Below are positions 10,001 through 63,722 of a DNA stretch of 64,000 nucleotides, in pieces. Positions within the stretch are counted from its first letter, which is position 1. Each line of letters opens with the position of its first letter. A model generated the notes under the pieces. That model had not been told where the DNA came from, did no database searches, and saw nothing but the letters and a program-made list of their open reading frames with translations. The translations under genes and the position numbers were made by a program. This DNA is from Amyelois transitella (Eukaryota; Arthropoda; Insecta; Lepidoptera; Pyralidae). The stretch covers positions 253,001 through 317,000 of the forward strand of contig NC_083533.1 in the NCBI RefSeq assembly GCF_032362555.1, in the 5' to 3' direction.

Positions 10001-13000
10001 CTATTCTTTTATGTATTGGTGCCAGGAACCACACGGCACCAATTTTATAAATACACGTATCATTTTAGGTAATAATGAAATGGCCACGTTCAGCTATTTG
10101 GCTTAATGATAGAATTGAGAAATTATTAAATAAAATGTGCCATGTGGTTCCCGGCACCAGTACAAAAAAGAATAGGACCACTCCATCTCGTTCCCATGGA
10201 TGTCGTAAAAGGCGACTAAGGAATAGGTAAAAAAATTTGAGATTCTTTTTTTTGGCGATGGGCTAGCAACCTATCACTATTTGAATCTCAATTCTATCTT
10301 AAAGCCAACGTAGCTGAACGTAGCCTATCAGTCTTTTGGAGACTGTTGGCTCTGACTACCCCACAAGGGATATAGACGTGACCATATGTGTGTATGTGTG
10401 TAAAAAAAAAAATACCAACACGATTACAGAACCGTCTAGAAGAAGAGCTACTGAAAAGTCAACCGGCCTCGACTCGGCGCGTTCTGGAGTTGGTGTCCGA
10501 GCGAGTGACGTCGCTCTGCGTGCGGGAACTCTCCGCCAAGCTCTTGTGCGAAGCCCGAGACAAGGCAAGAGCGCACGCCGCCACTGTGGTCAGAACTCAT
10601 AACGGAGATACGGTGAGAAACCAAGTATTTTATACCTCTGGATGTAGGTTTCTCATGCATTGTAAGAGAGAATGTCACAAAATATGAGAAAACCAAGTAT
10701 TTTTATCTGACTGACTGATTTACTTGCATATCAAGTAAAATTTGACATGTAGGTTTCTCATGCGGTGTAAGAGAGAATGTCACAAAATATGAGAAAACCA
10801 AGTATTTTTATCTGACTGACTGATTTATTTGCATATCAAGTCCCTAAGGCTATACCGCTGGATCTAGACATGTAAAATTTGACATGTTTCTCATGCGTTG
10901 TAAGAGAGAATGTCACAAAATATGAGAAAACCAAGTATTTTTATCTGACTGACTGATTTACTTGCAAGCTAACCGCTGGGTCTGAACTGTGATATTTGAC
11001 ATGTATGTTTCTCATGCGATGTAAGAGAGAATGTCACAAAATATGAGAAAACCAAGTATTTTTATCTGACTGACTGATTTACTTGCAAGCTATACCGCTG
11101 GGTCTGAACTGTGATATTTGACATGTATGTTTCTCATGCGATGTAAGAGAGAATGTCACAAAATATGAGAAAACCAAGTATTTTTATCTGACTGACTGAT
11201 TTACTTGCAAGCTATACCGCTGGGTCTGAACTGTGATATTTGACATGTATGTTTCTCATGCGATGTAAGAGAGAATGTCACAAAATATGAGAAAACCAAG
11301 TATTTTTATCTGACTGACTGATTTACTTGCAAGCTATACCGCTGGGTCTGAACTGTGATATTTGACATGTATGTTTCTCATGCGATGTAAGAGAGAATGT
11401 CACAAAATATGAGAAAACCAAGTATTTTTATCTGACTGACTGATTTACTTGCAAGCTATACCGCTGGGTCTGAACTGTGATATTTGACATGTATGTTTCT
11501 CATGCGATGTAAGAGAGAATGTCACAAAATATGAGAAAACCAAGTATTTTTATCTGACTGACTGATTTACTTGCAAGCTATACCGCTGGGTCTGAACTGT
11601 GATATTTGACATGTATGTTTCTCATGCGATGTAAGAGAGAATGTCACAAAATATGAGAAAACCAAGTATTTTTATCTGACTGACTGATTTACTTGCAAGC
11701 TATACCGCTGGGTCTGAACTGTGATATTTGACATGTATGTTTCTCATGCGATGTAAGAGAGAATGTCACAAAATATGAGAAAACCAAGTATTTTTATCTG
11801 ACTGACTGATTTACTTGCAAGCTATACCGCTGGGTCTGAACTGTGATATTTGACATGTATGTTTCTCATGCGATGTAAGAGAGAATGTCACAAAATATGA
11901 GAAAACCAAGTATTTTTATCTGACTGACTGATTTACTTGCAAGCTATACCGCTGGGTCTGAACTGTGATATTTGACATGTATGTTTCTCATGCGTTGTAA
12001 GGGAGAATGTCACAAAATATGAGAAAACCAAGTATTTTTATCTGACTGACTGATTTACTTGCAGGCTATACCGCTGGGTCTGAACTGTAATATTTGACAT
12101 GTATGTTTCTCCGCGCATTACTGCCGCATTTCTATCTCTAATCAGCTATATAGCAACATTTCTATATTTAGAATCTAATATAATTATAAATCTTTAAAAT
12201 ATTCATAGAGCCTTTTAATTTATACAGCGCCCACTTGTAACGGCTGAATTAACTATGTAGCTAACTGACGGAATATTAACATTACAATATTTCAATCCTA
12301 ATATTGTATAGCGCCATCTATTGACAACTAATCGAACTATCTAGTCACACTACCCGCGTTTTGATAATCACTCTATACGATTAACCCTTACGGAAATCGA
12401 ATTCGCAATCATAACACGTTGAATCAAAACGCGTTATGATTGCGAATTCGAATTCGAAATCCAGTTCTCAATCGAAGCGCGTTTCTTTTATTTCAACACA
12501 GCGCCATCTAGTAACACCGCTATGAACTATTTACTACATCCCTTCCAGAACCTTCTGCAGACTTTGCAGTCGCTGTACTCCACTCACGTGGAGCAGCTCA
12601 GATCTCGCACACTACAATCGGCGGAGCAGTTAGTCCGCTGTCGCATTGCGACCGCGCTTTACTGCCGCATTTCTATCTCTCATAAGCTGACATTACTGTA
12701 TTTAGAATCGAATATAATTCTAATATTGTATAGCGCCATCTATTGAAAACTAATCGAACTATCTAGTCACACTACCCGCATTTTGATAATCAGTCTCCAT
12801 GACGCGTTCCAATTCAACACAGCGCCATCTAGTAACACCGCCATGAACTATTTACCAAAACCCCTTCCAGAACCTTCTGCAGACTTTGCAGTCGCTGTAC
12901 TCCAGTCACGTGGAGCAGCTCAGATCTCGCACACTACAATCGGCGGAGCAGCTGGTCCGCTCTCGCATTGCGACCGCGCTTTACTGCCGCATTTCTATCT

Positions 13001-16000
13001 CTCATAAGCTGACATTACTGTATTTAGAATCGAATATAATCCTAATATTGTAAAGCGCCATCTATTGACAACTAATCGAACTATCTAGTCACACTACCCG
13101 CATTTTGATAATCAGTCTCCATGACGCGTTCCAATTCAACACAGCGCCATCTAGTAACACCGCCATGAACTATTTACCAAAACCCCTTCCAGAACCTTCT
13201 GCAGACTTTGCAGTCGCTGTACTCCACTCACGTGGAGCAGCTCAGATCGCGCACACTACAATCGGCTGAGCAGTTAGTTCGCTGTCGCACGGCGGCCGCC
13301 CTGCGAGCCTTGTTGCCGCACGCGGCGCCGCCTATCCTCGCGCTGGCCGCCAGGGGCTGCCTCAGCCGGCTGCAGAAGTGGATCAATGACAATTGGAATA
13401 CAACTGGTGAGTGTTCTATGCAGGGTGACTTTTAATTCAACTGCATAAATTTAACTGTTAAGTGTACTCATCTAAAAGATATTTAAAAACGTTAAAAGAA
13501 AAATATCGGTTCATATTTCAGAAAGTACGAAAAAAAATAAAAGTATCATAATCCACGATCCTAAATACGTCACAATACCCCGGCCGGCGGAAAAGCGATG
13601 CGTAAGATTCAGAGGTCAACGATACAATTCATTCAGCTGAGCGATCTCGGCAACTCTGTACTTTACTTGATCTTGATACTAGAAAAATAATTTATTTTTC
13701 AGACATTTATTTACATGTTTAGTTTTAATTTCTTTTTGTAGTATTGGTCTTTAATAAAGCGTGTGACGCAGTTTTTGAGGGTTTTTTAAATGTGAAAATG
13801 ATGACGTTTAATTTATATAAAAATAGGCTCAAACGGCTCAGAAGCATGGGTATAGTCTATGTTTAAAAGGATGCAGTTGTTTTAAATGTCACCCTGTATG
13901 TACCATTTTGAAAATAAATTTATTCTATGTAATGTACCATTTTGAAAATAAATCTATTCTATTCTATCCTATCCGATTCCAGCTATTCTTTGCAAAGACG
14001 TAGAAGCTGAAATGAAAACGCTCCTAGTAATAGGCGAGCCGTCCCCCAGCGCCGCCCCGCGGAAGGCCGTGGAAGCTCTGCTCGCTCCCGCGGTCGTGTT
14101 CTACGCGGCCAACGTCAGCCCCGCCGCTTGCATCATCAACTTGAAGGTAAATCATCATCAACAAAATTTTTTGAAAATAAATCTATTCTATTCATAATAA
14201 TATGTAAATATTCGAATATGTTGAGCAAAGGCGTATTATCGCTAAGCAATCTCTTCCAGCCAAACTTTGGGTAGTGAAAGGTAAAAAACATGGTATCGGG
14301 TGAGCAGATTACTTAACAGAAGAAGAATTCAGGTTTTTCACAAATCCTACGGGAACTTTAGCTTTTACCGGGATGAAAAGTAAATTGTTCTTTCGATAGA
14401 TCTTCAATTATATATAAGAGATATTTCAAGAAGAATAATTGATAAGTATTCTTATATAGTAAGAATTTAGTAGATAACCCCTGACGAGGTAACATATGTA
14501 TAAATAATCTTACTATCGCATTAATACTTGTAGAATTATTGTGACTTATTAATAAAATAAAAGTATTTTTTCGGAGTGAAAAACGTTTTCTTTCTTTCTT
14601 TCATTTCTATATAATGGCTTTCACCGGACTTTGGTTGATTCTGCTAATGTCACGGTTTCAAGAGACACGAAGTTACGAAATTGGTCGATGGACGATATGC
14701 GATCTTAAAGGAGAAGGTTAACAAATGTACAAACAAAAAAGTAGACATTGTTAGTAAAAAAGAAATCAAGTTAATGATTACAATGTGTAGTGAATGTGTA
14801 CGGTATGAAGTGAAAAACGTACGTTGTATCAGTATTCAGTAAAAGCGCGGCACGGAGAGAGATCTGTCAAACTGACATATGTCAGTTTGACAGATGACAA
14901 TTATACAAAAAAAATTTGCGTTCACAAATGTATAATAATATTAGTTTAAGATACAAGTATTAAACGCGTATGTAATGTACAAATTCAAAAATTGAATTCA
15001 TAATTATTGGACGTTTCAACATCACTTAATAATTGTCATATCTTTTAGTTTCACAACATTGGTTGACGTCAAATAAATAACTTAAAACCGAGTTAAAGCG
15101 CCAGAATTAGCAGTCTTGAAAGACTGATAGGCCACGTTCAGCTGTTGGGCTCATTGATAGAATTGATATTCAAATAGTGGCAGGTTGCTAGCCCAATTTT
15201 ATAAGCCTATCTCTGAGTCGCGTTTTACGACATCCATGGGTATCCCGTATAAGACAGAAGTAACTTGTTCTCCAGGAACAAATCTGCCTTCTCCTGGACG
15301 ACGAGCCGGCCGGCGAGCTGCCCGCCATCTTGGCGTCGTGCGCGGCGGCCTGCGCGCGCCGCAACGTGTTCGCGCGCGACTCCTCGCGCCGCGCGCTGCT
15401 GCGGCTCAGCGTCGAGCTGGGGCTCGTCGTGGGTCAGTGGACACACAGTGTGACATACAGTACCTGGGTGACCGAGCGGTGCTCGCGCCGCGCGCTGCTG
15501 CGGCTCAGCGTCGAGCTGGGGCTCGTCGTGGGTCAGTGGACACACAGTGTGACATACAGTACCTGGGTGACCGAGCGGTGCTCGCGCCGCGCGCTGCTGC
15601 GGCTCAGCGTCGAGCTGGGGCTCGTCGTGGGTCAGTGGACACACAGTGTGACATACAGTACCTGGGTGACCGAGCGGTGCTCGCGCCGCGCGCTGCTGCG
15701 GCTCAGCGTCGAGCTGGGGCTCGTCGTGGGTCAGTGGACACACAGTGTGACATACAGTACCTGGGTGACCGAGCGGTGCTCGCGCCGCGCGCTGCTGCGG
15801 CTCAGCGTCGAGCTGGGGCTCGTCGTGGGTCAGTGGACACACAGTGTGACATACAGTACCTGGGTGACCGAGCGGTGCTCGCGCCGCGCGCTGCTGCGGC
15901 TCAGCGTCGAGCTGGGGCTCGTCGTGGGTCAGTGGACACACAGTGTGACATACAGTACCTGGGTGACCGAGCGGTGCTCGCGCCGCGCGCTGCTGCGGCT

Positions 16001-19000
16001 CAGCGTCGAGCTGGGGCTCGTCGTGGGTCAGTGGACACACAGTGTGACATACAGTACCTGGGTGACCGAGCGGTGCTCGCGCCGCGCGCTGCTGCGGCTC
16101 AGCGTCGAGCTGGGGCTCGTCGTGGGTCAGTGGACACACAGTGTGACATACAGTACCTGGGTGACCGAGCGGTGCTCGCGCCGCGCGCTGCTGCGGCTCA
16201 GCGTCGAGCTGGGGCTCGTCGTGGGTCAGTGGACACACAGTGTGACATACAGTACCTGGGTGACCGAGCGGTGCTCGCGCCGCGCGCTGCTGCGGCTCAG
16301 CGTCGAGCTGGGGCTCGTCGTGGGTCAGTGGACACACAGTGTGACATACAGTACCTGGGTGACCGAGCGGTGCTCGCGCCGCGCGCTGCTGCGGCTCAGC
16401 GTCGAGCTGGGGCTCGTCGTGGGTCAGTGGACACACAGTGTGACATACAGTACCTGGGTGACCGAGCGGTGCTCGCGCCGCGCGCTGCTGCGGCTCAGCG
16501 TCGAGCTGGGGCTCGTCGTGGGTCAGTGGACACACAGTGTGACATACAGTACCTGGGTGACCGAGCGGTGCTCGCGCCGCGCGCTGCTGCGGCTCAGCGT
16601 CGAGCTGGGGCTCGTCGTGGGTCAGTGGACACACAGTGTGACATACAGTACCTGGGTGACCGAGCGGTGCTCGCGCCGCGCGCTGCTGCGGCTCAGCGTC
16701 GAGCTGGGGCTCGTCGTGGGTCAGTGGACACACAGTGTGACATACAGTACCTGGGTGACCGAGCGGTGCTCGCGCCGCGCGCTGCTGCGGCTCAGCGTCG
16801 AGCTGGGGCTCGTCGTGGGTCAGTGGACACACAGTGTGACATACAGTACCTGGGTGACCGAGCGGTGCTCGCGCCGCGCGCTGCTGCGGCTCAGCGTCGA
16901 GCTGGGGCTCGTCGTGGGTCAGTGGACACACAGTGTGACATACAGTACCTGGGTGACCGAGCGGTGCTCGCGCCGCGCGCTGCTGCGGCTCAGCGTCGAG
17001 CTGGGGCTCGTCGTGGGTCAGTGGACACACAGTGTGACATACAGTACCTGGGTGACCGAGCGGTGCTCGCGCCGCGCGCTGCTGCGGCTCAGCGTCGAGC
17101 TGGGGCTCGTCGTGGGTCAGTGGACACACAGTGTGACATACAGTACCTGGGTGACCGAGCGGTGCTCGCGCCGCGCGCTGCTGCGGCTCAGCGTCGAGCT
17201 GGGGCTCGTCGTGGGTCAGTGGACACACAGTGTGACATACAGTACCTGGGTGACCGAGCGGTGCTCGCGCCGCGCGCTGCTGCGGCTCAGCGTCGAGCTG
17301 GGGCTCGTCGTGGGTCAGTGGACACACAGTGTGACATACAGTACCTGGGTGACCGAGCGGTGCTCGCGCCGCGCGCTGCTGCGGCTCAGCGTCGAGCTGG
17401 GGCTCGTCGTGGGTCAGTGGACACACAGTGTGACATACAGTACCTGGGTGACCGAGCGGTGCTCGCGCCGCGCGCTGCTGCGGCTCAGCGTCGAGCTGGG
17501 GCTCGTCGTGGGTCAGTGGACACACAGTGTGACATACAGTACCTGGGTGACCGAGCGGTGCTCGCGCCGCGCGCTGCTGCGGCTCAGCGTCGAGCTGGGG
17601 CTCGTCGTGGGTCAGTGGACACACAGTGTGACATACAGTACCTGGGTGACCGAGCGGTGCTCGCGCCGCGCGCTGCTGCGGCTCAGCGTCGAGCTGGGGC
17701 TCGTCGTGGGTCAGTGGACACACAGTGTGACATACAGTACCTGGGTGACCGAGCGGTGCTCGCGCCGCGCGCTGCTGCGGCTCAGCGTCGAGCTGGGGCT
17801 CGTCGTGGGTCAGTGGACACACAGTGTGACATACAGTACCTGGGTGACCGAGCGGTGCTCGCGCCGCGCGCTGCTGCGGCTCAGCGTCGAGCTGGGGCTC
17901 GTCGTGGGTCAGTGGACACACAGTGTGACATACAGTACCTGGGTGACCGAGCGGTGCTCGCGCCGCGCGCTGCTGCGGCTCAGCGTCGAGCTGGGGCTCG
18001 TCGTGGGTCAGTGGACACACAGTGTGACATACAGTACCTGGGTGACCGAGCGGTGCTCGCGCCGCGCGCTGCTGCGGCTCAGCGTCGAGCTGGGGCTCGT
18101 CGTGGGTCAGTGGACACACAGTGTGACATACAGTACCTGGGTGACCGAGCGGTGCTCGCGCCGCGCGCTGCTGCGGCTCAGCGTCGAGCTGGGGCTCGTC
18201 GTGGGTCAGTGGACACACAGTGTGACATACAGTACCTGGGTGACCGAGCGGTGCTCGCAATAAACAAAACAGCACAGCAGCTAATATAAATGGTCTTAGG
18301 AATATCTAGTCTACGCCATCTGCTCTACATAATACGTAGAAATCACCTTATGCTATTACAATTTTGCTTAACAAATGTTTCCTTCTATTTGCAGTGAGCA
18401 AGAAACCCTCAGAAATAACCGAGACGTTCCTCAACCAACTGCACAATATCTGGAACACGTGTTGCCCGGACCGCAAGCGGACCCAATCGCAAGATCTGTC
18501 CATCCCTGAGAGAAGGGAGGATATCTCGCCGGAATTCCGCAACTTCGAAGACGACGATCGAGTTCAAACTCCTGTATCTGACGAGGAGAACCAGAATAAT
18601 CCTGTCGAAGGCAAGATATTAGTACTAGAAGGCAATTTGGCACAGATTGAAGGCAAAACGTTACAAAATGAAGGCGGAACATTACAAAATGAAGGCAGAA
18701 CATTACAAAATGAAGGCGGAACAGTACAAAATGAAGGCAGAACATTACAAAATGAAGGCAAAACATTACAACATGAAGGCGGAACATTACAAAATGAAGG
18801 CAATTCAATGCAATTAGAAGCGAACAGTGTGAACGACAGCAAAAGTGTTGATAATATAGCGGAAGACAATAACAATGAAATGTTAGAGTACTTTGAGAGA
18901 ATTTTGTGTCCGAGGAACATAGCTTTGTTGAGTGCGTCCAAGTGTAAATCGAGTGATGTTTGGGAGTCATTGGCCACGGTGTTAGTGTTTCTGTTGAGGA

Positions 19001-20471
19001 ATGACTATCTGAGTGAAGACTCGCTGACAGAGCAGTGCTTAGCTGTTTACAGGCAGGACTGGCCGCAGGTGAGTCAATTTTTGATATTAACTTGAGTAGA
19101 GTAGAATAGATTTAGAATAGAATAGATTTATTTGGATACAAGGTATCACTTATTGACGTCACAGCACTTAAATCTTATTATAACTACTACCGCTTCCAAA
19201 GCGCATGAATAGAATGGAATAGATTTATTTTCAAAATTGGATACAAGGTATCACTTATTGACGTCACATAACTTAAATCTAATTATAACTACTACCGCTT
19301 CCAAAGGGCATGTGTAGAAGAAGCGGCAGAACAAACTACACTGCAGCATTTTCATCGGACGTCAATTTACAAATATAGATCTCTTAAATCTAAATCGTGG
19401 ACGAATGCGCATTGTCTACATTAAAAAACATGAATGAACTAATTATGTCAATGCGAATATTAACTTTCAATCAATTAATACAATATCTTATATATAAAAT
19501 TTACGTGTCACAATGTTCGTTCCCGTAATCCTCCGATACGCCTTGACCGATTCTCATGAAATTTTGTGAGCATATTGAGTAGGTCTGAGAATCGGCCGAC
19601 ATCTATTTTTCATACCCCTCAGTGATAAGGGTTGTCCAGGTTGCTAGCCAATCGCCCAATAAAAAGAATCCCAAGTTTGTAAGCCTATACAGGGTGACAT
19701 TTAAAACAACTGCATCCTTTTAAACATAGACTATACCCATGCTTCTGAGCTGTTTGAGCCTATTTTTATTTAAATTGAACGTCATCATTTTCACATTTAA
19801 AAAACCCCTCAAAAACTACGTCACACGCTTTATTTAAGACCAATACTACAAAAACAAATTAAAACTTAACATGTAAATAAATGTCTGAAAAATAAATTAT
19901 TTTTCTAGTATCAAGGTCAAGTAAAGTACAGAGTTTTCGAGATCGCTCAGCTGAATGAATTGTGTCGTTGACCTCTGAATCTTACGCGTCGCTTTTCCGC
20001 CGGCCGGGGTGATATGACGTATTTAGGATCGTGGATTTTGATACTTTTATTTTTTTTTCATACTTTCTGAAATATGAACCGATATTTGTCTTTTAACGTT
20101 TTTAAATATCCTTTAGATGAGTACACTTAACAGTTAAATTTATGCAGTTGAATTAAAAGTCACCCTGTATATAAAAGGCGACTAAGGGAGTCGCTTTTTA
20201 CGACATCCACGGGAAAGAGATGGAGTGGTCCTGTTTTCTTATTGTATCGGTGCCGGGGACCACATAAATATAAAAAATTACCTAAAATAAATAAATAAAT
20301 AAATAATTTCTCCGTCCGCAGAATATATTGGAAAGTCTATCGACATGCATGAGGTCGGTCTCCTCCCGTTGGTCTAGATGTTCCACCGGAAAGTTCACGC
20401 TGTTCCTGGACTTCTTGGCGGAGTACTGCGGCGATATGGACTACGAGCCTGCTATGGACGACGATGTGTAG
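1..20471 (+). CDS. Cdan1: codanin-1 gene (3' part, 12 exons)
   Basis: In vertebrates codanin-1 binds the histone chaperone ASF1 in the cytoplasm and pairs with the nuclease-like CDIN1; human mutations cause congenital dyserythropoietic anaemia I, and the fly homologue is discs lost. Twelve exons (3-1054, 3855-4011, 5812-5906, 7316-7419, 8214-8410, 9112-9615, 10430-10612, 13193-13406, 13983-14146, 15276-15432, 18395-19068, 20322-20471) join with every phase matching, giving 1216 codons plus stop, close to the human length of about 1227 aa. Recognisable family stretches are FYELLR in exon 1, AKFLGYLTSLPY in exon 5 and the LDLQGLLRNAQ/LPWLVHYLS block in exon 6. RRRIKPT at visible residues 67-73 resembles the ASF1-binding B-domain motif. 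The 5' end lies outside the window. Homology is from memory; splice sites are read directly. Confidence 0.9.
1215..1442 (+). repeat. repeat A, plus orientation
   Basis: Repeat A is a roughly 250-300 bp interspersed family that dominates the window. One end reads CCGTGTGGTTCCCGGCACCA. The interior holds CATGGATGTCGTAAAAGGCG and GGGCTAGCAACCTGTCACTA. The other end reads CCCCGCAAGGGATATAGACG and runs into a (TATG)n tail. A simple-repeat tail without poly-A suggests a non-autonomous element mobilised by an RTE-type LINE; that is inference. This copy's tail runs into the first exon-2 fragment. Confidence 0.75.
1442..1500 (+). pseudogene. Cdan1 exon 2 fragment copy a
   Basis: About 59 bp duplicate the exon 2 acceptor and first codons, with an internal deletion, and then jump into repeat A at a shared CTCTGTC-like sequence. 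No donor follows. Confidence 0.7.
1540..1776 (-). repeat. repeat A, minus orientation
   Basis: A near full-length inverse copy ending in CACACGGC, directly behind exon-2 fragment a. Confidence 0.7.
1835..1965 (-). repeat. RTE-like repeat B fragment
   Basis: Begins with (ACAT)n, then CACGCCTCTTTCCCGGAGG and CCACTTGCCACGATCTCTGC. Family B recurs near 2225-2300, 2475-2516, 8055-8200, 21270-21375, 22450-22590, 31632-31740, 43590-43635, 46640-46770 and 49018-49160. The (ATGT)n end fits the 3' end of an RTE-clade LINE. Confidence 0.65.
2000..2082 (+). pseudogene. Cdan1 exon 2 fragment copy b
   Basis: This copy has the acceptor-like AATCAACAG| and about 70 nt of exon 2. All five base differences visible against exon 2 are synonymous. 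It then fuses to repeat A at the CCGCTCTGTCCACCCC junction. Confidence 0.75.
2517..3836 (-). mobile_element. mariner transposon, inactivated
   Basis: A roughly 1.3-kb mariner-family element with imperfect terminal inverted repeats: CTGTCAAGAAAGTAGCGGGAA on the left matches the inverse of TTCCCGATACTTTTCTGAC on the right. Each end is next to TA in a (TATG)n tract, the expected mariner target. Exact ends are uncertain by a few bases. It lies in the codanin intron between exons 1 and 2, antisense to the gene, and its right end is about 18 bp from the exon 2 acceptor. Confidence 0.82.
2569..3641 (-). pseudogene. mariner transposase, one frameshift
   Basis: The N-terminal part (ATG at 3641) has paired helix-turn-helix DNA-binding regions, including the SHESIRTIL-type helix. 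The C-terminal part has the D,D34D catalytic triad: Asp in GDETW, Asp in HHDN and Asp in ASAD 35 residues later. The two parts lie in different frames. The break is near 3275-3285, after ARLV, and looks like loss of a single base. The rest is open to a TAA at 2569, so the copy is recent but cannot encode an intact enzyme. Confidence 0.88.
3855..4011 (+). CDS. Cdan1: Cdan1 exon 2
   Basis: The acceptor reads CCAACAG| and completes the Arg codon begun by exon 1. The product (WYQDCQSTG..., then RARLKPLM and LAALFVKQML) matches the codanin stretch that reads GRIRAMM and LFQKQLLQMC in human. The donor is CAG|GTGATT in phase 0. The acceptor lacks a normal polypyrimidine tract because a mariner ends only about 18 bp upstream. 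Two truncated copies of the 5' end of this exon lie upstream near 1442 and 2000. Confidence 0.82.
4100..4355 (+). repeat. repeat A, plus orientation
   Basis: A full-length copy with a GTATGTATG tail, 90 bp downstream of codanin exon 2. Confidence 0.7.
4356..4591 (+). mobile_element. Lep1-like Helitron fragment
   Basis: Contains the family landmarks TTATAAAGCTAAAGAGTTTG, CGCTAATCTCAGGAACTA, CATCACGCTGCAACTA and TATTCCACGCGGACG. It is truncated at the 3' end by a repeat-A start. Confidence 0.65.
4591..4735. repeat. repeat A fragments, head to head
   Basis: A short plus-orientation start (4591-4668) abuts a short inverse end (about 4677-4733); the interiors are missing. Confidence 0.6.
4745..5235. 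repeat. outer foldback element, GC-rich
   Basis: CGCTCACGATCGCACGAGCGCC near 4783 is the inverse of a stretch near 5198-5220. These form outer arms around the inner TTAA-flanked foldback. The region is rich in GCGCTGA/TCAGCGC words, which recur at 5620-5790. It looks like one hairpin element nested in another. Confidence 0.55.
4913..5144. mobile_element. foldback MITE with TTAA duplication
   Basis: Two arms of about 82 bp are near-perfect inverses around a 70-bp centre. The termini read TACACTCCGC and GCGGAGTGTA and are flanked by TTAA on both sides, the target preference of piggyBac-type transposases. No coding capacity. Confidence 0.75.
5283..5512 (+). mobile_element. non-autonomous repeat (GGCTCGCCCCGGCTTCGCAC)
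   Basis: A common arthropod repeat that starts ACTAGCGGCTCGCCCC, carries ATCAAAATCGGACCAGTAG and ends near TTATTATTAGTGTGGATTA. The CTAG-side start and lack of inverted repeats suggest a Helitron-derived fragment in reverse. Confidence 0.5.
5812..5906 (+). CDS. Cdan1: Cdan1 exon 3
   Basis: This GC-rich 95-nt exon follows a CCCGCAG| acceptor in phase 0 and ends at AA|GTACGT in phase 2. It encodes SRLSKLHVRLTRAD, an Ala/Pro/Arg-rich linker and HHFYK, which joins EFIMN of the next exon. The matching human segment reads GRLWRLQERLM, a Pro-rich linker and FFRDFI. It is too short and GC-rich to stand out as an open frame. Confidence 0.82.
6113..6588 (+). mobile_element. 477-bp TA-flanked MITE, copy 1
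   Basis: Ends are CAGGGTGACATTTAAAACAA and the inverse-type TTAAAAGTCACCCTG, with TA on each side as expected for Tc1/mariner-mobilised MITEs. No open frame. Five copies of almost equal length occur in the window. Confidence 0.82.
6664..6895 (+). repeat. repeat A, plus orientation
   Basis: The copy is truncated before its CCCCGC end and passes into a SINE tail. Confidence 0.65.
6920..7022 (+). mobile_element. SINE 3' fragment
   Basis: Carries the SINE body words AGTATCGTTGAGTTAG, CGTAACACAAGTCTCGAA and GGCTAACTCAATCTG, without the tRNA-like head. Confidence 0.65.
7027..7278 (-). repeat. repeat A, minus orientation
   Basis: A full inverse copy that ends 38 bp before codanin exon 4. Confidence 0.7.
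7316..7419 (+). CDS. Cdan1: Cdan1 exon 4
   Basis: The acceptor TTCCTCAG| completes the Lys codon from exon 3. The exon encodes EFIMNTDNESFRVHLRHTL and continues to DSTQLVEG, then ends at GGTT|GTAAGT in phase 1. The human counterpart is the DFILSASSFQFNQHLMDSL region. A minus-strand repeat-A copy ends about 40 bp upstream. Confidence 0.85.
7532..7772 (+). mobile_element. Lep1-like Helitron fragment
   Basis: Starts at CTATACTAATATTATAAAGA, keeps the CATCACGCTGCAACTATTAG interior and loses the final GCTAGT end. Confidence 0.68.
7788..8050 (+). repeat. repeat A, plus orientation
   Basis: A full-length copy with a TATGTATG tail. Confidence 0.7.
8214..8410 (+). CDS. Cdan1: Cdan1 exon 5
   Basis: The exon follows a CTCTCAG| acceptor and completes a Ser codon. 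It encodes CREYFHLVKKLSLLAKFLGY and LTSLPYSLNID, matching the strongly conserved human RLLAKFLGFVAFLPY block. It ends at TAT|GTGAGT in phase 0. RTE-like debris lies just upstream. Confidence 0.9.
8432..8682 (-). repeat. repeat A, minus orientation
   Basis: A full inverse copy starting 22 bp after codanin exon 5. Confidence 0.7.
8880..8934 (+). mobile_element. Lep1-like Helitron 3' end
   Basis: Only the terminal CCACGCGGACGAAGTCGCGG and GCACAGCTAGT remain; the CTAGT terminus is typical of the family. Confidence 0.6.
8990..9095 (+). repeat. repeat D with (ATTCT)n tail
   Basis: Contains GCTTTGGAAGCGGTAGTA, GACGTCAATAAGTGATACC and AATAAATCTATTCTATTCT. Related copies lie near 13905-13965, 19095-19370, 31850-31998, 52563-52625 and 63000-63160. 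A variant with ACTGCCGCTTCCAAGGCGTC is near 2130, 5580, 24920 and 59345. The pentamer tail suggests a LINE or SINE 3' end. Confidence 0.55.
9112..9615 (+). CDS. Cdan1: Cdan1 exon 6 (core domain)
   Basis: This is the longest internal core exon (504 nt, phase 0 at both ends). It encodes LDLQGLLRNAQ, then ITLPWLVHYLSMLDY and KYYQQIIKTIFSIY, which align with human [28 protein letters not shown] and the following YYRDIF helix. The acceptor is TTGTTACAG| and the donor CAG|GTGTGT. Confidence 0.9.
9794..10037 (-). repeat. repeat A, minus orientation
   Basis: A full inverse copy in the intron after codanin exon 6. Confidence 0.7.
10136..10400 (+). repeat. repeat A, plus orientation
   Basis: Ends in a TGTGTATGTGTG tail about 30 bp before codanin exon 7. 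Confidence 0.7.
10430..10612 (+). CDS. Cdan1: Cdan1 exon 7
   Basis: A phase-0 exon after GATTACAG|, ending ACG|GTGAGA. It encodes an EEELLKS helix followed by RRVLELVSERVTSLCVREL and an Ala/Arg-rich helix, as in the codanin C-terminal half. A 122-bp tandem array starts at its donor. Confidence 0.85.
10614..12111 (+). repeat. 122-bp tandem array at the exon 7 donor
   Basis: The word GAGAAAACCAAGTATTTTT recurs at 10685, 10790, 10924, 11045 and then every 122 bp to 12021; a related GAGAAACCAAGTATTTT sits at the exon 7 donor (10614). The first spacings are irregular (71, 105, 134, 121); later units are almost identical. In the units the donor GTGAGA is replaced by ATGAGA, so the array grew from donor-flanking DNA but lost the splice site. 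Confidence 0.85.
12398..12450. repeat. 23-bp inverted repeat hairpin
   Basis: The arms 12398-12420 and 12428-12450 (CGAATTCGCAATCATAAC...) pair with one mismatch around a 7-base loop. It lies just upstream of the exon 8 triplication. Confidence 0.7.
12549..12662 (+). pseudogene. truncated Cdan1 exon 8, copy 1
   Basis: Reads NLLQTLQSLYSTHVEQL and SAEQLVRCRIATAL like exon 8, then leaves homology and meets a stop at 12744-12746. No convincing donor follows, so it cannot replace exon 8. Confidence 0.75.
12871..12984 (+). pseudogene. truncated Cdan1 exon 8, copy 2
   Basis: The same truncation as copy 1, with small substitutions (for example Ser-Ser for Ser-Thr). The acceptor is intact and there is no donor. 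Confidence 0.75.
13193..13406 (+). CDS. Cdan1: Cdan1 exon 8 (third, intact copy)
   Basis: The acceptor CTTCCAG| lies in the third copy of a 322-bp tandem unit, and only this copy carries the whole exon and a donor. It encodes NLLQTLQSLYSTHVEQL, then SAEQLVRC and a Leu/Ala-rich helix ending LQKWINDNWNTT. It ends at ACTG|GTGAGT in phase 1. A 476-bp MITE is inserted 14 bp beyond the exon end. Confidence 0.85.
13421..13896 (-). mobile_element. 477-bp MITE, copy 2
   Basis: An inverse copy with CAGGGTGACTTTTAATTCAA on the left and GTCACCCTG on the right. It begins only 14 bp after the end of exon 8, leaving the GTGAGT donor intact. Confidence 0.82.
13983..14146 (+). CDS. Cdan1: Cdan1 exon 9
   Basis: After GATTCCAG| the exon completes an Ala codon and reads ILCKDVEAEMKTLL, then VEALLAPAVVFYAANVSPAA and INLK. 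It ends at AAG|GTAAAT in phase 0. It is GC-rich relative to its flanks, as are exons 3 and 10. Confidence 0.85.
14862..14895. repeat. 34-bp perfect palindrome
   Basis: ATCTGTCAAACTGACAT is followed directly by its exact inverse, centred on CATATG. It has no spacer, could extrude as a hairpin and is not linked to a recognised element. Confidence 0.8.
15108..15240 (-). repeat. repeat A fragment, minus
   Basis: A partial inverse copy ending at CATCCATGGG, 36 bp before codanin exon 10. Confidence 0.6.
15276..15432 (+). CDS. Cdan1: Cdan1 exon 10 (seed of 99-bp array)
   Basis: The acceptor is TTCTCCAG|. The exon encodes EQICLLLDDEPAGELPAIL, an Ala/Cys-rich helix, then RRALLRLSVELGLVV, and ends at GTGG|GTCAGT in phase 1. 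Its last 50 nt plus the donor and 49 intron nt form the first unit of a 29-copy array, so the 3' boundary is ambiguous by multiples of 99 nt. The first donor is chosen because it gives the simplest protein. Confidence 0.78.
15383..18258 (+). repeat. 99-bp x 29 array spanning a 5' splice site
   Basis: Twenty-nine complete 99-bp units (15383-18253) plus CTCGC follow one another without visible variation. Each holds the last 50 nt of codanin exon 10, the GTCAGT donor and 49 nt of intron. In the codanin frame every unit is open and encodes RRALLRLSVELGLVV, GQWTHSVTYSTWVTERC and one Ser. The first stop is TAA at 18261-18263, after the array. Long open frames in other phases and on the other strand are by-products of the repetition. 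Confidence 0.95.
18395..19068 (+). CDS. Cdan1: Cdan1 exon 11 with heptad repeats
   Basis: After ATTTGCAG| the exon completes a Val codon and reads SKKPSEITETFLNQLHNIWN. An acidic linker follows, then about ten 7-residue repeats (18607-18816) of the pattern EGxTLQN. After these come ERILCPRNIALLSASK and WESLATVLVFLLRNDYL, which look like the conserved C-terminal helices. It ends CAG|GTGAGT in phase 0. The repeats appear to be a lineage insertion in a disordered linker. Confidence 0.85.
18607..18816 (+). repeat. 21-bp coding minisatellite in exon 11
   Basis: About ten 21-bp units encode heptads EGKILVL, EGNLAQI, then EGxTLQN variants. Third positions and one or two residues vary, so it is older than the 99-bp array and stays in frame. 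Confidence 0.85.
19632..20265 (-). repeat. repeat A split by a MITE
   Basis: Repeat A runs to AGCCTATA, is interrupted by MITE copy 3 and resumes with AAAGGCGACTAAGG and GTCGCTTTTTACGACATCC. This shows that MITE family moved after this repeat-A copy was inserted. Confidence 0.7.
19690..20167 (+). mobile_element. 477-bp MITE, copy 3
   Basis: CAGGGTGACATTTAAAACAA to GTCACCCTG with TA on both sides, in the last codanin intron and nested in a repeat-A copy. Confidence 0.82.
20322..20471 (+). CDS. Cdan1: Cdan1 exon 12 (terminal)
   Basis: The last exon follows CCGTCCGCAG|. It encodes NILESLSTCMRSVSSRW, then GKFTLFLDFLAEYCGD and an acidic tail, with a TAG stop at 20469-20471. A possible AATAAA lies at 20903-20908 beyond a repeat-A copy; closer signals are not obvious. 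Confidence 0.85.
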   Translation, partial: NILESLSTCMRSVSSRWSRCSTGKFTLFLDFLAEYCGDMDYEPAMDDDV

Positions 20472-27400: not shown

Positions 27401-30400
27401 GTTGGATGAATATGAATAGAATACATTTATTTTCAAAATACAAAAGTACAATAAAAGTTTGAATTTGAATTTGAACAAATAATAAATATATACGGAACTA
27501 ATTACACAGATTGAGTTAGCCTCGAAGTAAGCTCGAGACTTGTGTTACTAACTATACTAACTTAACGATACTATATACATACATACATACATATAATCAC
27601 GTCTATATCCCTTGCGGGGTAGACGATACTATATATTATAATAAATACTTATTATATATAGATAAACATCCAACACCCAGGCCAATCAAAAAAGTTCTTT
27701 TCTCATCACGCCCTGGCCGGGATTCGAACCCGGGACCTCCGGTGTCACAGACAAGCGCACTACCGCTGCGCCACAGAGGCCGTCAATAATCAATATTATG
27801 GATGGATACCTGTTAAACAATTGGTCTCCTCCCACCCAATATGGTTTCCGCGCGTGATCGGCGAAGCTCTCCTTCAGCTTCTGCTTCTTCTTCATCATGG
27901 CCATTAACTCCTGCTGTGAATACTCCCCCGGGTTGAACCGCCTCAGCCTGGAAAAACATATTCATCATACAGTTTTATTATTATTATTCGTATTGAAATC
28001 ATTAGTGTGGTGTGTGTGTGCCGTGTGGTTCCCGGCACCAATACAAAAAAAAATAGGACCACTACATCTCTTTCCCATGGATGTCGTAAAAGGCGACTAA
28101 GGGTTAAGCTTACAAACTTGGGATTCTATTTTAGGCGATGGGCTAGCAACCTACTGTCACTATTTGAATCTCAATTCTAGCATTAAGCCAAATAGCTGAG
28201 CGTGGCCTATCAGTTTTTTTAAGACTGTGGGCTCTGTCTACCCCACAAGGGATATAAACGTGACCATATGTATGTATGTCGGCAACAATGAAAAAAAGAG
28301 GAGGACCACTCCATCTCGTGCCTATGGATATAGTAAAAGGCGGCTAAAGGAAAAACAGTTGGGATTCTTCTATTAAGCGATAGACTAGCAACCTGTCACT
28401 ACTCAATTCTATAATTAAGTCATGCAGCTTCTTTTCTGCATGCAGTCTTTTCAAGGCTCTGTCTAACCAGCAAGGGATATAGACGTGATTATATGTATGT
28501 ATGTATCATAAGTACTTACCTTATATTGATCCCAACCATACCAACCTTAACTAATACGAGTATTATAAAAGTAAAAAACACTTTTTAGGCGATGGGCTAG
28601 CAACCTTTCTCTATTTGAATCTTAATTCTATCATAAAGCCAAATAGCTGAACGTGGCCCTTCGCCATTTAAGATCTACAGATTTCGCCACAAGTCTTTTC
28701 AAGACTGTTGGCTCTGTCTACGCCGCAAGGAATAAAGACGTGACCATTTGTATGTATGTAAAAGTAAATTTGTTTATATGTTTTTTGCCCATCTTCTCGT
28801 GTGATCTACTGAAACAATCTTGAAATTTCGCTTTATGTATAATACCTTTCGTCGACTTTTTCTAGTGTGGTTTCACTATTTTCTCTCTCCGCGTCCGAGG
28901 CATCTTCCAGGAGTTTCATCATTTTCGATTCAGCGTCGGAATATTTTGACGGACGTATTTCTAAACTTTTTTCCGCTCTGAAATAGTTTGGATAAATTTA
29001 TACGTATATGTAATTTTATACTTAGTTAATGTTATCTATTTAAAAAAATACAGAAATAAATTTAAAAAAACGGGCATTCTTTACTTCTACGTGAGACATC
29101 TTGCTTGTGTCATACAAACTTTTAGGTATAGCGAATTAACCTAGTTAAATTTGAAAAACAATATACAGCATTGTGGTATTTCAAAGTAGATCCGCTAGAT
29201 GGCGTTGTTTAAAAATGAAACGCGCTATGGTTTCTGTTTTTAATTCGATTATATTTTACTGTCGCTTTTTATAAAACAGGTGGCGCTTTAAAAATGTGAA
29301 AAACCTGTAGATGTCTTTAGACATCAACTTTTTGTTTCAGGGACGCCTATTTGACTAGTGCATCCCTATATCTATACTCATAACATAAAGCTGAAGAGTT
29401 TGTTTGTTTGAACGCGCTAAACTCAGGATCTACAGGTAGTAGATTTGAATTCGAAGGCTTTAGGCTATATAACATCACGCTGCAACTATTAGGAGCGAAG
29501 AAATAATGGAAAATGTGAAAAAAAAACGGGGAAAATTATTCATCCTTGAGGGCTTCAATGATGCCTAAAATTATTCCATGCGGACGAAATCGCGGGCACA
29601 GCTAGTAAATAATAAAAATTTTAACAGTATATGACTTAAAAACACAAAAAAAAATTAATAATTCGTGATTCGATCCCTAATCGAATTCTGTGTTGGAACC
29701 TAACCTATCTACATCATTTTTCATCTCGACGAAAATTAGGTAGGTATATTGTGTACAATATTTCAGTAATTGATACATAAATTTTGTAAGGTATATTGTC
29801 TCGGTGTTACTAATTTGTATTTAAGAGAGCACAAACTTCAAAAATTTATGTAAGTAGGCAGGTAAGATACTTATCGCCTAGGTACGACGAACTGTTAATT
29901 TAATTCTTACATTTTATTGTTTATTGAAGTCGGTTTTCAATTTTTTTTATTTTTTTGAATGACAATGAGAGCAAGTGTTAAGCACTAATTACGCAAATGT
30001 ACTTACACAAACAATAATTAATAAAATATATGTACTATAACTAAAAAGTGGCCTTTCAGTTTTTCAAGACTTGGCTCTGTCTACCCCGCAAAGGATATAG
30101 ACGTGACTAGTAAGTATGTAAAAATATGTATACAACCGACTTCAAAAACACTAAAAAGCTAAAAATAAATGAAAATTAAATTAACCAAGGCGATAAGTGG
30201 GTTGATATCTAACCAATAAAGGTTCAAAAGACTAATAAACATTTTTTAGGCGATGAGCTAGCAAGCAGTCAACTATTTAAATCACAATTCCCTCATTAAG
30301 CCAAACAGTTAAAGGTAGCCTTTTCCAGCCTATTAAGGAATGTTGGCTCTGTCTACCCCGTAAACTATACTAAACTCGCGCGAACGTACGCATGTTTAAA

Positions 30401-39670: not shown

Positions 39671-40788
39671 CTAATACAAATCATCGATTACTTCCTGCTT
39701 AACAACCACATCTATCTCCGTTTTCGGTTCAGTTTTTATTAAAATCTCATTCTCCATTCCCTTCTCACTCTTCTGTCCAACGACTCCTCTCTCACTCTCC
39801 TCTTTAATCATAATATCATTCTTGCCGACCAACTCATTCTTCCTCAACACTTCCTGCCAAATTTTCAAAGCGACCCCAGCGTCCGTCAACTTCTCATTAT
39901 AACTATGCTCCGGATGCTTCTTGCTGTAATGCCTCACAATGTTCTGTTTGTGAGAGAACTTCTTCGGGCAAAACTGACAGACAAACTGTAACTTTTCATC
40001 GCTGTGCACTCTCATGTGATATTTCAAACGGCTCTCTTTGGGGAACTTCTTATTGCAGATATTACACGTTGTATGTTTAACCTTCTCGTGTCTAACCGAA
40101 TGTCTCTGCATGTTATGTTTATGTGAGAACTTCTTTTTGCACACTGGACACTCGTACGGCTTTTCACCAGTATGGATCCTCATGTGGGGTTTGATCAGGC
40201 CGGGGTGTGTGAAAGGTTTATCGCAAACGTCGCAAGTGAATGGCTTGTCCTCTTTATGTATTTGCACGTGGCGAATTAATGTACTCTTATATTTGAAATT
40301 CATTTTGCATTCGTCACAAGAGTACGGTTTCTCGCTAGTGTGCCTTCTTAGATGACTTTTTAGTAGGAACTCCTTTTGGAATATCTTGTGGCAGACGTGG
40401 CATTGTATCGGCTCGTCTATTGGCCTCTTGCAGCGGCTCTTCCCCTGGTGTTTGGTCAGGTTGGCCTTGATGGCGAAGTATCTGTGACACTTGTCGCAGA
40501 AGTACGGTTTGTCTTTCAAGTGGCTCTTCTTGTGTTGTTGGAGGTTTGAAGACGTTCGGAATACTTTGGGGCATTCATCGCAAGGGTATGTCCTCTCGTG
40601 CTGGGTCGCTACGTGTTTCTGTAGTAACTCCTCGCGAGTGAAAGTTTTCCCGCACGAATGGCACGGGTGACTCCTCCTGGAGTGCAGCGCTATGTGTCTT
40701 TGGGCATGACCTTTGGTGGTAAACATCTTTTTACATATTGGACACACGTATTCTCCGTTCAGCAAACGCGTCGGCTGGATTTCGTCCT
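39671..40788 (-). CDS. zinc-finger gene exon 4 (ten fingers)
   Basis: After TATCACAG| it reads DEIQPTRLLNGEY, then fingers starting YVCPIC, HPCHSC, YPCDEC, YFCDKC, IQCHVC, YSCDEC, FTCDVC, YECPVC, TTCNIC and FVCQFC. Finger 4 ends in H-x-C rather than H-x-H and may be degenerate or C2HC. The stop is TAG at 39673-39671. Confidence 0.9.
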
Positions 40789-61300: not shown

Positions 61301-63375
61301 TTTAGCCCTTGCGGAGTAGACAGAGCCAGCAGTCTTGAATAGTTTAAATGAAATTATGACATTCGTACATACATATGGTCACGTCTATATCCCTTGCGGG
61401 GTAGATAGAGCCAACAGCCTTGGAAAGATTGATAGGCCAAGCTCAGCTGTTTGGCTTAGTGATAGAATTGAGAATCAAATAGTGACAGGTTGCTAGCCCA
61501 TCGCCTAAAAGAGGAATATGTAACATACATACATAGGAACAGACAACGTAAAGCTTCTTTGTTTATACAATTCCAGTGATAGTTTTAACGTGATACTTAC
61601 CCAGGTACCAGGCGATCTTGTTTCATACAATTCCAGTGATAGTTTTAACGTGATACTTACCCAGGTACCAGGCGATCTTGTTTCATACAATTCCAGTGAT
61701 AGTTTTAACGTGATACTTACCCAGGTACCAGGCGATCTTGTTTCATACAATTCCAGTGATAGTTTTAACGTGATACTTACCCAGGTACCAGGCGATCTTG
61801 TTTCATACAATTCCAGTGATAGTTTTAACGTGATACTTACCCAGGTACCAGGCGATCTTGTTTCATACAATTCCAGTGATAGTTTTAACGTGATACTTAC
61901 CCAGGTACCAGGCGATCTTGTTTCATACAATTCCAGTGATAGTTTTAACGTGATACTTACCCAGGTACCAGGCGATCTTGTTTCATACAATTCCAGTGAT
62001 AGTTTTAACGTGATACTTACCCAGGTACCAGGCGATCTTGTTTCATACAATTCCAGTGATAGTTTTAACGTGATACTTACCCAGGTACCAGGCGATCTTG
62101 TTTCATACAATTCCAGTGATAGTTTTAACGTGATACTTACCCAGGTACCAGGCGATCTTGTTTCATACAATTCCAGTGATAGTTTTAACGTGATACTTAC
62201 CCAGGTACCAGGCGATCTTGTTTCATACAATTCCAGTGATAGTTTTAACGTGATACTTACCCAGGTACCAGGCGACCTTGTTTCATACAATTCCAGTGAT
62301 AGTTTTAACGTGATACTTACCCAGGTACCAGGTGACCTTGTTTCATACAATTCCAGTGATAGTTTTAACGTGATACTTACCCAGGTACCAGGCGATCTTG
62401 TTTCATACAATTCCAGTGATAGTTTTAACGTGATACTTACCCAGGTACCAGGTGACCTTGTTTCATACAATTCCAGTGATAGTTTTAACGTGATACTCAC
62501 CCAGGTACCAGGTGATCTTGGCAGCTGGTCTGCCGTCTGGGACCACGCACTGCGCCAGGAACCTGTCGCCCTCCTTGAACGACGGGGCTGGCGGGGAGAC
62601 CAGGCGGGGGTCGCCGGGGGGTCCTGTAATTTGTAATACGTTTGAAGACTAGAATATAATAGATTTATTTTCAAAATTGTGACAGGTTGCTAGCGAATCC
62701 CAAGTTTGTAAGCCTATCCCTTAGTCGCCTTTTACGACATCAATGGGAAAGAGATGGATTGGTCCTATTCTTTTTTTTATTGGGGCCGGGAACCACACGG
62801 CACTAATGTTTTGATATTATAAGACGAAGTAAATAGATACTATTAAAGTATGTGTTGATGTTCCACTAACGTGGACCCCTCATTTTCATTTCATGGACCC
62901 CCAGATTTTTTTTCGCACGTTCAGTTCTACATTCATTCATGTTTTTTAATGTAGACAATGTGCATTCGTCCACGATTTAGATTTAAGATTTATATATTTG
63001 CAAATTGACGTCCGATGAAAATGTTGCAGTGTAGTTTGTTTCGCCGCTTCTTCTACACATGCGCTTTGGAAGCGGTAGTAGTTATAAGATTTAAGTTATG
63101 TGACATCAATAAGTGATACCTTGTATCCAATTTTGAAAATAAATCTATTCTATTCTAATCAATTCTGTTGTCATAGACCCCTAGGGGTCGATATGAGACC
63201 ACTTTGAGAATCACTGGTCTAGGCCTTCCCACTCCAACGTTTGGTACTTACTGGCTACAATAAGCCTCATGGCAGCCGTGATCTCCACAGACCCTCGTTC
63301 AGGAGGCAGGGTGCAGGATATGTTCCCGTTCAGGGCTTCTGACACAAGACGGATGTGAGCACCGCATTCGCCGGA
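46223..63375 (-). CDS. Fas3: Fasciclin 3 gene (3' part, alternative C-termini)
   Basis: Fas3 is a homophilic Ig-superfamily adhesion protein at septate junctions and on growth cones. Visible exons: 63252-63375 (end of Ig1), 62501-62623 and 60533-60724 (Ig2), 58821-59008 and 58239-58380 (Ig3), optional 57393-57434, 56374-56487 (transmembrane), then either 54590-54753 or 50007-50046, 48720-48767, 47742-47877 and 46223-46360. All phases match. Family landmarks are CGAHIRL, CVVPDGRPAAKITWYL, the AIVGIVIAVLLLLIAITLIV membrane segment followed by ATDRWCF, and SDTESA. The 5' exons lie beyond the right edge. Homology is from memory of the fly protein. Confidence 0.87.
47138..47335 (+). repeat. repeat A, plus orientation
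   Basis: A copy whose end is interrupted after CCCCGCAAGGGACAT by about 120 bp of other sequence before ATAGACGTGACC resumes near 47447. Confidence 0.6.
47461..47719. mobile_element. 259-bp element with perfect 23-bp TIRs
   Basis: CACCTTTAGAATTATAGAGA... at 47461-47483 is the exact inverse of 47697-47719. No open frame. I could not settle a target-site duplication. Confidence 0.75.
47742..47877 (-). CDS. Fas3: Fas3 cytoplasmic exon with SDTESA motif
   Basis: After GCGTCAG| it encodes SDTESAVGGRERSRLAGLGA, an Arg/Ala-rich stretch and ATADTDDK, ending AAG|GTTCGT in phase 0. SDTESA is shared with the fly cytoplasmic tail. A TIR element ends 22 bp from its donor. Confidence 0.75.
48720..48767 (-). 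CDS. Fas3: Fas3 48-nt possible cassette exon
   Basis: TTTTCAAG| to GTAAC|GTATGT; 48 nt, phase 2 on both sides, encoding TPAGDVLLTGVALPV. Its symmetry means it can be skipped without frame change. Confidence 0.55.
48810..49290. repeat. inverted-end repeat split by RTE fragment
   Basis: GGGCCTAAACACATAACCGC near 48819 is the inverse of GCGGTTATGTGTTTTTGCCC near 49268, GC-rich inside both ends. A family-B fragment (49018-49160) is inserted in it. Confidence 0.5.
49378..49654. mobile_element. hAT-type MITE with 8-bp duplication
   Basis: Ends CAGTGGCGTAACT and AGTTACGCCACTG are inverse. GCTATAGT at 49370-49377 and 49655-49662 is an exact 8-bp target duplication, diagnostic of hAT transposition. 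Confidence 0.85.
50007..50046 (-). CDS. Fas3: Fas3 40-nt exon of isoform B
   Basis: TTTTACAG| to GAATC|GTATGT; encodes GSRGRDNTKSSGE in the frame set by the transmembrane exon and ends in phase 2. Confidence 0.65.
50127..50385 (+). repeat. repeat A, plus orientation
   Basis: A full copy 81 bp above the Fas3 40-nt exon. Confidence 0.68.
50503..50614. repeat. 23-bp inverted repeat element
   Basis: AACGCGTCGATAAAGTAAAC... at 50503-50525 is the exact inverse of 50592-50614, around a 66-bp centre holding CAGCGCCATCTAGTGG. Confidence 0.7.
53662..53915 (-). repeat. repeat A, minus orientation
   Basis: An inverse copy, isolated in an otherwise repeat-poor tract. Confidence 0.66.
54590..54753 (-). 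CDS. Fas3: Fas3 alternative terminal exon A (PDZ ligand)
   Basis: After TTATGCAG| it encodes GRSHHTDIPDGADSEAPLP, then SHDDIKGSENPSHDHGEYIS and a KKPDTAV end with TAA. The last residues T-A-V fit a class I PDZ-binding ligand, suggesting a scaffold partner for this isoform. Confidence 0.75.
56374..56487 (-). CDS. Fas3: Fas3 transmembrane exon
   Basis: After ATCCCCCAG| it encodes GVELEAG, a membrane span AIVGIVIAVLLLLIAITLIV, and FAKATDRWCFA, ending GCCG|GTAAGT in phase 1. This is the best-conserved match to fly Fas3. Confidence 0.92.
57393..57434 (-). CDS. Fas3: possible Fas3 42-nt cassette exon
   Basis: TTTTGACAG| and ATG|GTAAGA bound 42 nt that fit phase 1 on both sides and encode about ARKAFTSFLVIDIY. 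It would insert 14 residues between Ig3 and the membrane segment. It is predicted from splice signals and phase only. Confidence 0.5.
57938..58130. repeat. repeat A fragments
   Basis: A short inverse copy with a large deletion (57938-58050) is followed by a plus-strand end (58055-58125). Confidence 0.58.
58239..58380 (-). CDS. Fas3: Fas3 exon, second half of Ig3
   Basis: After TTCCCAACAG| it encodes GGGYYNVTLLLSHIEKEDVD, then RKYYLRVSNELGYEEFTVLI and STLDEPT, ending ACTG|GTGAGG in phase 1. A SINE begins 33 bp upstream of the acceptor. Confidence 0.85.
58414..58655 (+). mobile_element. tRNA-derived SINE, plus
   Basis: GGCCTCTGTGGCGCAGCGGT carries the A box and GGTTCGAATCCCGG the B box, so a pol III promoter is intact. 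The body ends GGCTAACTCAATCTG, TGTCCCGTATATA. The 3' side of the head does not pair with its 5' side, so it is not a working tRNA gene. Confidence 0.8.
58664..58732 (-). pseudogene. duplicated fragment of Fas3 Ig3 exon
   Basis: 69 bp are nearly the same as 58831-58899 inside the Ig3 exon (a few substitutions, one changing Ile to Met). No splice sites flank it, and it lies between a SINE and the real exon. Confidence 0.75.
58821..59008 (-). CDS. Fas3: Fas3 exon, first half of Ig3
   Basis: After TTGTTCCCAG| it encodes APKRLESNTITIFGLKLGAE, then GRLNVTVRANPPPRAEWNVG and AVTAIQPVHL, ending TTG|GTGAGT in phase 0. Part of it is duplicated at 58664-58732. Confidence 0.85.
59260..59432 (+). repeat. 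repeat D variant
   Basis: Contains TTTCACAACATTGGTTGACG and ACTGCCGCTTCCAAAGCG; same arrangement as 24830-25000 and 5520-5640. Confidence 0.5.
59522..59575 (+). repeat. 27-bp direct duplication
   Basis: ACTCAATCTAATCCACCTTC plus 7 bases occurs twice in tandem without change. Confidence 0.8.
59833..60304 (-). mobile_element. 477-bp MITE, copy 5
   Basis: An inverse copy, CAGGGTGACTTTTAATTCAA to TTGTCACCCTG, TA on both sides, in the Fas3 intron within Ig2/Ig3. Confidence 0.82.
60323..60522 (+). mobile_element. Helitron-like element, second family
   Basis: Sister of 40985-41205. It ends CGGCCTCTAGTAGTA, about 10 bp from the Fas3 Ig2 exon donor. Confidence 0.6.
60533..60724 (-). CDS. Fas3: Fas3 exon, second half of Ig2
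   Basis: After TCTTCCCAG| it encodes DDKELQEGLYKPEVTSSPGS, then NISRVVTADDNNVVLTCRAE and VREAKRQIIVH, ending CACT|GTATGT in phase 1, which forms Tyr with the next exon. Confidence 0.85.
60830..61085 (-). repeat. repeat A, minus orientation
   Basis: A full inverse copy headed by (CATA)n. A short plus copy (61146-61245) and an inverse fragment (61375-61512) follow. Confidence 0.7.
61561..62520 (-). repeat. 60-bp x 16 array spanning a 5' splice site
   Basis: Sixteen 60-bp units in perfect register (one at the exon, fifteen downstream). On the minus strand each has 20 nt of exon end, a donor and 40 nt of intron. Only the exon-proximal unit has GTGAGT; the others have GTAAGT. A few units near the exon carry C/T changes in the GGCGATCTTG word. 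In the Fas3 frame each unit meets a TGA after about 12 codons beyond the donor, so only the first donor keeps an open protein. Confidence 0.93.
62501..62623 (-). CDS. Fas3: Fas3 exon, first half of Ig2
   Basis: After AATTACAG| it encodes PPGDPRLVSPPAPSFKEGDR, then FLAQCVVPDGRPAAKITWYL, ending CTGG|GTGAGT in phase 1. The last 20 nt plus the donor seed a 60-bp array, in which all other copies have GTAAGT. Confidence 0.88.
62678..62803 (-). repeat. repeat A fragment, minus
   Basis: Has GTGACAGGTTGCTAGC and the CACACGGCAC end, 55 bp upstream of the Fas3 first Ig2 exon. Confidence 0.62.
63252..63375 (-). CDS. Fas3: Fas3 exon, end of Ig1
   Basis: After TTTTCATTCAG| it encodes SGECGAHIRLVSEALNGNIS, then CTLPPERGSVEITAAMRLIV and A, ending GCCA|GTAAGT in phase 1. 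The Cys pair of Ig1 closes here, as in the fly protein. Confidence 0.85.
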
Positions 63376-63495: not shown

Positions 63496-63722
63496 GGCCT
63501 CTGTGGCGCAGCGGTAGTACGCTTGTCTGTGACATAGGAGGTCCCGGGTTCGAATCCAGGCCAGGGCATGATGACAAAAGAACTTTTTCTGATTGGCCTG
63601 GGTCTTGGATGTTTATCTATATAAGTATTTAATATAAAATATAGTATCGTTGAGTAAGTATCTCGTAACACAAGTCTCGAACTTACTTCGAGGCTAACTC
63701 AATCTGTGCAATTTGTCCCAAA
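63496..63722 (+). mobile_element. tRNA-derived SINE, plus
   Basis: Second complete copy with A and B boxes (GGCGCAGCGG, GGTTCGAATCC); ends GCAATTTGTCCCA. A further SINE tail lies at 63842-63958. Confidence 0.78.

Follow-up and report, generated by a model that had tools for sequence, protein, structure and literature searches.

Within a codanin gene of Amyelois transitella, one and the same 5' splice site occurs 29 times in tandem at a single exon-intron boundary, and the copies share a reading frame. This arrangement raises the question of whether the array encodes a codanin whose length follows the choice of donor or the number of units, or is a largely silent expansion that the gene tolerates. 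The locus was analysed within a stretch of 64,000 nucleotides (contig NC_083533.1, positions 253,001 to 317,000), referred to here as the window, and all coordinates are those of this stretch.

The repeated donor and its host gene

The features of the codanin array and its surroundings are as follows.

15276..15432, plus strand: codanin exon of 157 nt up to donor 1; its last 50 nt (15383–15432) are the exonic part of repeat unit 1
15383..18258, plus strand: tandem array of 29 identical 99-bp units and a 5-bp CTCGC (TRF, script)
15433..15438, plus strand: donor 1, GTCAGT, predicted as the one used (U1 pairing, in-silico splicing)
18205..18210, plus strand: donor 29, GTCAGT, 190 nt ahead of the next exon (in-silico splicing)
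18259..18394, plus strand: unique rest of the intron, ending TTTGCAG; reading through a retained array meets a stop at 18261
18395..19068, plus strand: following codanin exon, with phase 1 entry and a 21-bp coding repeat

TRF resolved the interval 15383–18258 into a period of 99 bp with 29.1 copies, 100% matches and 0% indels, and a script that cut the array into 99-mers returned 29 identical units out of 29, followed by the 5-bp partial unit CTCGC; not one difference was found across the 2876 bp. One unit consists of the last 50 nt of the codanin exon and 49 nt of the intron, with the donor GTGG/GTCAGT inside it, and the extended donor GTCGTGG/GTCAGT recurred every 99 bp (n = 29), its first intron bases lying at 15433, 15532 and so on up to 18205. 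Both elements of the original prediction concerning the array, namely 29 in-frame and invariant copies of a codanin 5' splice site and a unit made of 50 nt of exon, a GTCAGT donor and 49 nt of intron, were thereby recovered as claimed. With 29 units of 99 bp at 100% identity, the array falls within the usual description of a minisatellite (tandem units of about 10–100 bp with high identity), and it is more than chance sequence. The exon that follows the array contains a further in-frame coding repeat, of 21 bp (7.4 copies, 89% matches), at positions 18648–18802.

The identification of the host gene as codanin, also predicted originally, was borne out by the exons upstream of the array, the joined translations of which matched the human codanin-1 structures PDB 9imz and 9cvc (E about 4e-31) as well as the Pfam family PF15296 (Codanin-1_C; E 1.2e-22). 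The array-bearing exon gave no Pfam match, and a search of PDB with a 274-residue piece around this exon returned no codanin even at E 10. The place of the array exon in codanin is thus suggested by exon order, phase and splice signals; an exon ahead of it lies at 13983–14146.

Donor choice and reading frame

As judged by the pairing score, each unit carries a donor able to pair with U1, present as 29 copies of TGG/GTCAGTGG. This donor scored 18, a value reached by 5.1% of the plus-strand GT sites in the window, and four other codanin donors scored 16, 22, 16 and 21 by the same U1 pairing count; from its sequence, the array donor is predicted to be of moderate strength. The predicted accessibility was similar at the first, middle and last donors (0.32, 0.24 and 0.24, respectively), and donor 1 is therefore not set apart by any feature of the local sequence.

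The remaining sites of the unit were also surveyed. The idea that the 49 intronic nt are true exon served by another donor was rejected, given that GTCAGT tops the 10 GT sites of the unit (score 18; next best, 14). When the codons were read by eye, the only phase 1 GT sites in the unit were GTCAGT and two weak sites with scores of 9 and 10. Six AG sites are present per unit, their pyrimidine tracts appearing poor by eye, and the best of them, GCTGCTGCGGCTCAG, would leave an intron of 75 nt. A 33-mer taken from the intronic portion of the unit had no match in viral contigs.

In-silico splicing of donors 1, 2, 3 and 29 to position 18395 yielded an open, in-frame, phase 1 product in every case, with intron lengths of 2962, 2863, 2764 and 190 nt, respectively, and from the identity of the units it follows that the remaining 25 donors splice open and in frame as well. 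Unspliced read-through of the whole array encountered the stop at 18261. These results agreed with the original expectation that the frame is open in every unit and that 18395 is entered in phase 1 from any donor, and they confirmed the common phase and open frame by which 0 to 28 extra blocks of 33 residues are possible on paper; donor 29, if used, would add 924 residues.

The phase 1 and open frame common to all donors would accord with a codanin of tunable length, in which several donors are used, or in which array length differs between individuals and the last donor is used, such that the number of 33-residue blocks varies. We regard this explanation as unlikely. A unit that is both in frame and open is expected by chance with a probability of about 0.17, or roughly 1 in 6 (length divisible by three, 1/3; stop-free shuffled 49-nt intron parts, 0.50), so that the open frame by itself is no argument for selection and was rejected as proof of function; in addition, the blocks would break into codanin at the point where SVELGLVV is followed by SKKPSEIT. 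The AlphaFold model computed from a single sequence for the exon with four and a half units (mean pLDDT 70.9) showed repeated beta strands at about 75–86, not the re-encoded helix that had been predicted, and provided weak evidence that the blocks could fold. Perfect repeats can yield overconfident structure models, however, and this model, built from one sequence, was likewise rejected as proof of function.

Other arrays at splice junctions in the window

The window also contains arrays with which the codanin donor array can be compared.

12492..13289, plus strand: 2.5 units of 322 bp across a codanin acceptor, with exon starts at 12549, 12871 and 13193 (TRF, in-silico splicing)
10642..12111, plus strand: array of 105/122-bp units, starting 29 bp past the codanin donor 10613 (TRF, alignment)
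61559..62520, minus strand: 16 units of 60 bp across a donor of an Ig-domain gene (TRF, in-silico splicing)

The 60-bp array lies in a minus-strand gene whose joined exons matched Ig domains (PF08205, E 2.2e-14, obtained with a query join that carried one wrong residue), and which presumably resembles Fasciclin-3. Its repeated donor reads TACCTGG/GT(G/A)AGT, 15 of the 16 copies being GTAAGTAT. Only donor 1 (62500) opened the frame into the exon starting at 60724, with the Ig domain reading across the junction. Donors 2, 3 and 16, spliced in silico, each gave a stop in the first unit, ahead of donor 2, a position that makes the stop unavoidable for every one of the 15 later donors. These later donors were similar in strength to the first (pairing 23 versus 22; duplex energy −12.2 versus −12.3). 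As a separate observation, the 12-mer GTACCTGGGTGA (15460, 62508) is found in every one of the 29 codanin units, and its only other occurrence in the window is at the first Ig-array donor.

In the 322-bp array, it is an acceptor that has been multiplied. The frames from acceptors 1 and 2 stopped after 65 and 60 codons, the best donors before these stops having pairing scores of 12 and 14, respectively, and acceptor 3 alone was open to a good donor (13407, score 22). Acceptors 1 and 2 are thus likely unproductive, with the qualification that an in-frame cassette exon could in principle arise through the weak donor at 12955 (score 14, phase 0).

Taken together, the window holds three boundary-spanning arrays in two genes, and in two of the three the repeated sites are without coding value. 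Since neither of the two neighbouring arrays is coding-compatible, such arrays arise without coding value, and the original step from an open frame to a length-tunable protein, already weakened by the frequency with which such a frame occurs by chance, loses further ground. In both the Ig array and the 322-bp acceptor array, the working site is the one adjoining the intact part of the exon, which points to tolerated expansion with the outermost site used, on the assumption that both comparison genes are functional.

The 105/122-bp array, which begins beyond a donor, showed a trace of the adjoining junction: its unit and the flank of donor 10613 matched in 18 of 19 columns with one gap, the donor GT not being included. 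The score of this match was 31, compared with maxima of 27 in 1000 window pieces and 26 in 500 shuffles. Just upstream of the 322-bp array, the stretch 12112–12491 by eye resembles a more diverged copy, and together with the two arrays that flank it this stretch fills nearly the whole codanin intron.

The comparison arrays also bear on whether the codanin array could be an assembly or polishing artefact, that is, whether the assembler created the array, or whether its copy number or perfect identity is in error. The codanin array is without any differences, and both the 60-bp Ig array and the 122-bp array show differences in their edge units and none among the inner ones, a pattern that polishing could produce. 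On the other hand, a perfect 99-bp repeat would normally be collapsed by short-read assembly, so that a long-read assembly is likely, and the three further arrays of the window are each distinct in unit, boundaries and internal variants. An artefact therefore appears improbable.

With respect to the long arrays as a group, seven TRF rows had a period of at least 50, and merging the two 105 rows with the 122 row left five arrays. Three of the five span a splice junction, and the fourth begins 29 bp past a donor. The chance of at least three junction-spanning arrays was estimated at 0.0003 to 0.005, assuming 16 to 40 junctions. A preference of long arrays for splice junctions is only suggestive, the comparison being post hoc, drawn from one flagged window, and dependent on junction numbers that were assumed, not annotated.

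Elsewhere in the window, open frames in two frames with, by eye, the look of a mariner-type transposase were noted at 2569–3755 (minus strand), and an open frame of 376 residues, which matched C2H2 zinc fingers ten times, at 39674–40801 (minus strand). Matches to tRNA families of Rfam were found at 27709–27780, 58416–58486 and 63497–63568; we would guess that these are tRNA-derived SINEs.

Origin and significance of the codanin array

From these observations, we infer that the codanin array is probably a recently expanded minisatellite that straddles an exon-intron boundary and is largely silent, donor 1 being the one mainly used. The sequence CTCGC is found at both ends of the array, within CTCGCGCC in the exon and GTGCTCGCAATA in the intron, an indication that these short repeats were joined in the initial duplication; the first repeat would accordingly have arisen by tandem duplication between the two CTCGC copies, taking in both exon and intron. 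Such short end repeats are no shared signature of the boundary arrays, because the ends of the Ig array share only CAA. Unequal exchange or replication slippage may then have grown the array to 29 identical units. The outermost donor keeps the whole exon ahead of it, and normal codanin would thus be made from donor 1, the other 28 donors leaving with the intron. Some leakage to later donors, adding 33-residue blocks, may occur, the unit happening to be in frame.

A mutation rate of 2.9e-9 per base and generation, the value for butterflies, was assumed. At this rate, zero differences in 2876 bp gave an upper 95% age of about 360,000 generations for the array, a bound that assumes no homogenisation and would be weakened by it. 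The chief doubt about donor 1 as the main donor comes from the behaviour of identical competing donors, which in splicing studies often favours the donor nearest the acceptor, here donor 29.

A single intron with 29 copies of its donor, the full retention of which ends in the stop at 18261, could also be envisaged as a regulatory device under selection, serving either as a set of many U1 binding sites or as a control of codanin level by productive and unproductive splicing. The perfect identity of the units is fitted as well by recent expansion, however, and an unrelated gene carries a similar array, and we consider such a device very improbable.

Several known systems invite comparison with the array read as a recent and largely silent minisatellite. 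The closest precedent may be the minisatellite of human IFI6 (6-16), which reportedly, in work of Turri and colleagues dating from 1995, supplies multiple splice donors in about 26 units of 12 bp. In both genes, the tandem repeat begins near the end of an exon and each unit carries a donor-like sequence; IFI6 reportedly shows alternative use of its repeat-borne donors, and this use of more than one donor speaks for a codanin of variable length. The codanin array differs in having 29 identical 99-bp units that include 50 nt of coding exon, and in having donors that are predicted from sequence alone. Its head-to-tail units, the short direct repeat at its ends and its high identity are those of an ordinary minisatellite or VNTR, from which it differs in that the unit lies across a splice junction in a conserved gene and preserves the reading frame.

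Introns can be gained when a segment containing AGGT is duplicated in tandem, a process that resembles the present case in that splice-site sequence is copied in tandem. Unlike in such a gain, the codanin unit appears by eye to have donors only and no clear acceptor, and no new intron is proposed here. Donor competition has also been studied with reporter minigenes carrying duplicated 5' splice sites. There, as in the codanin transcript, identical donors compete for one acceptor; the codanin array, in contrast to the minigenes, is natural and has 29 sites at a spacing of 99 nt.

If real in the animal, the array would constitute a natural experiment, in which 29 identical and equally spaced donors face one acceptor in a conserved gene, and cDNA could show directly how position affects donor choice, free of differences in site strength. 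With regard to the lineage, a broader view would be that tandem amplification repeatedly hits exon-intron boundaries, leaving arrays of near-identical splice sites, and that in cases such as codanin, whose unit happens to preserve the frame, splicing draws on several donors and the protein varies in length with the array; we hold this to be unlikely. A duplication across a splice junction can be silent, since the exon stays intact in the outer copy, and the parallel arrays of this window suggest that tandem duplications of this kind may be unusually well tolerated.
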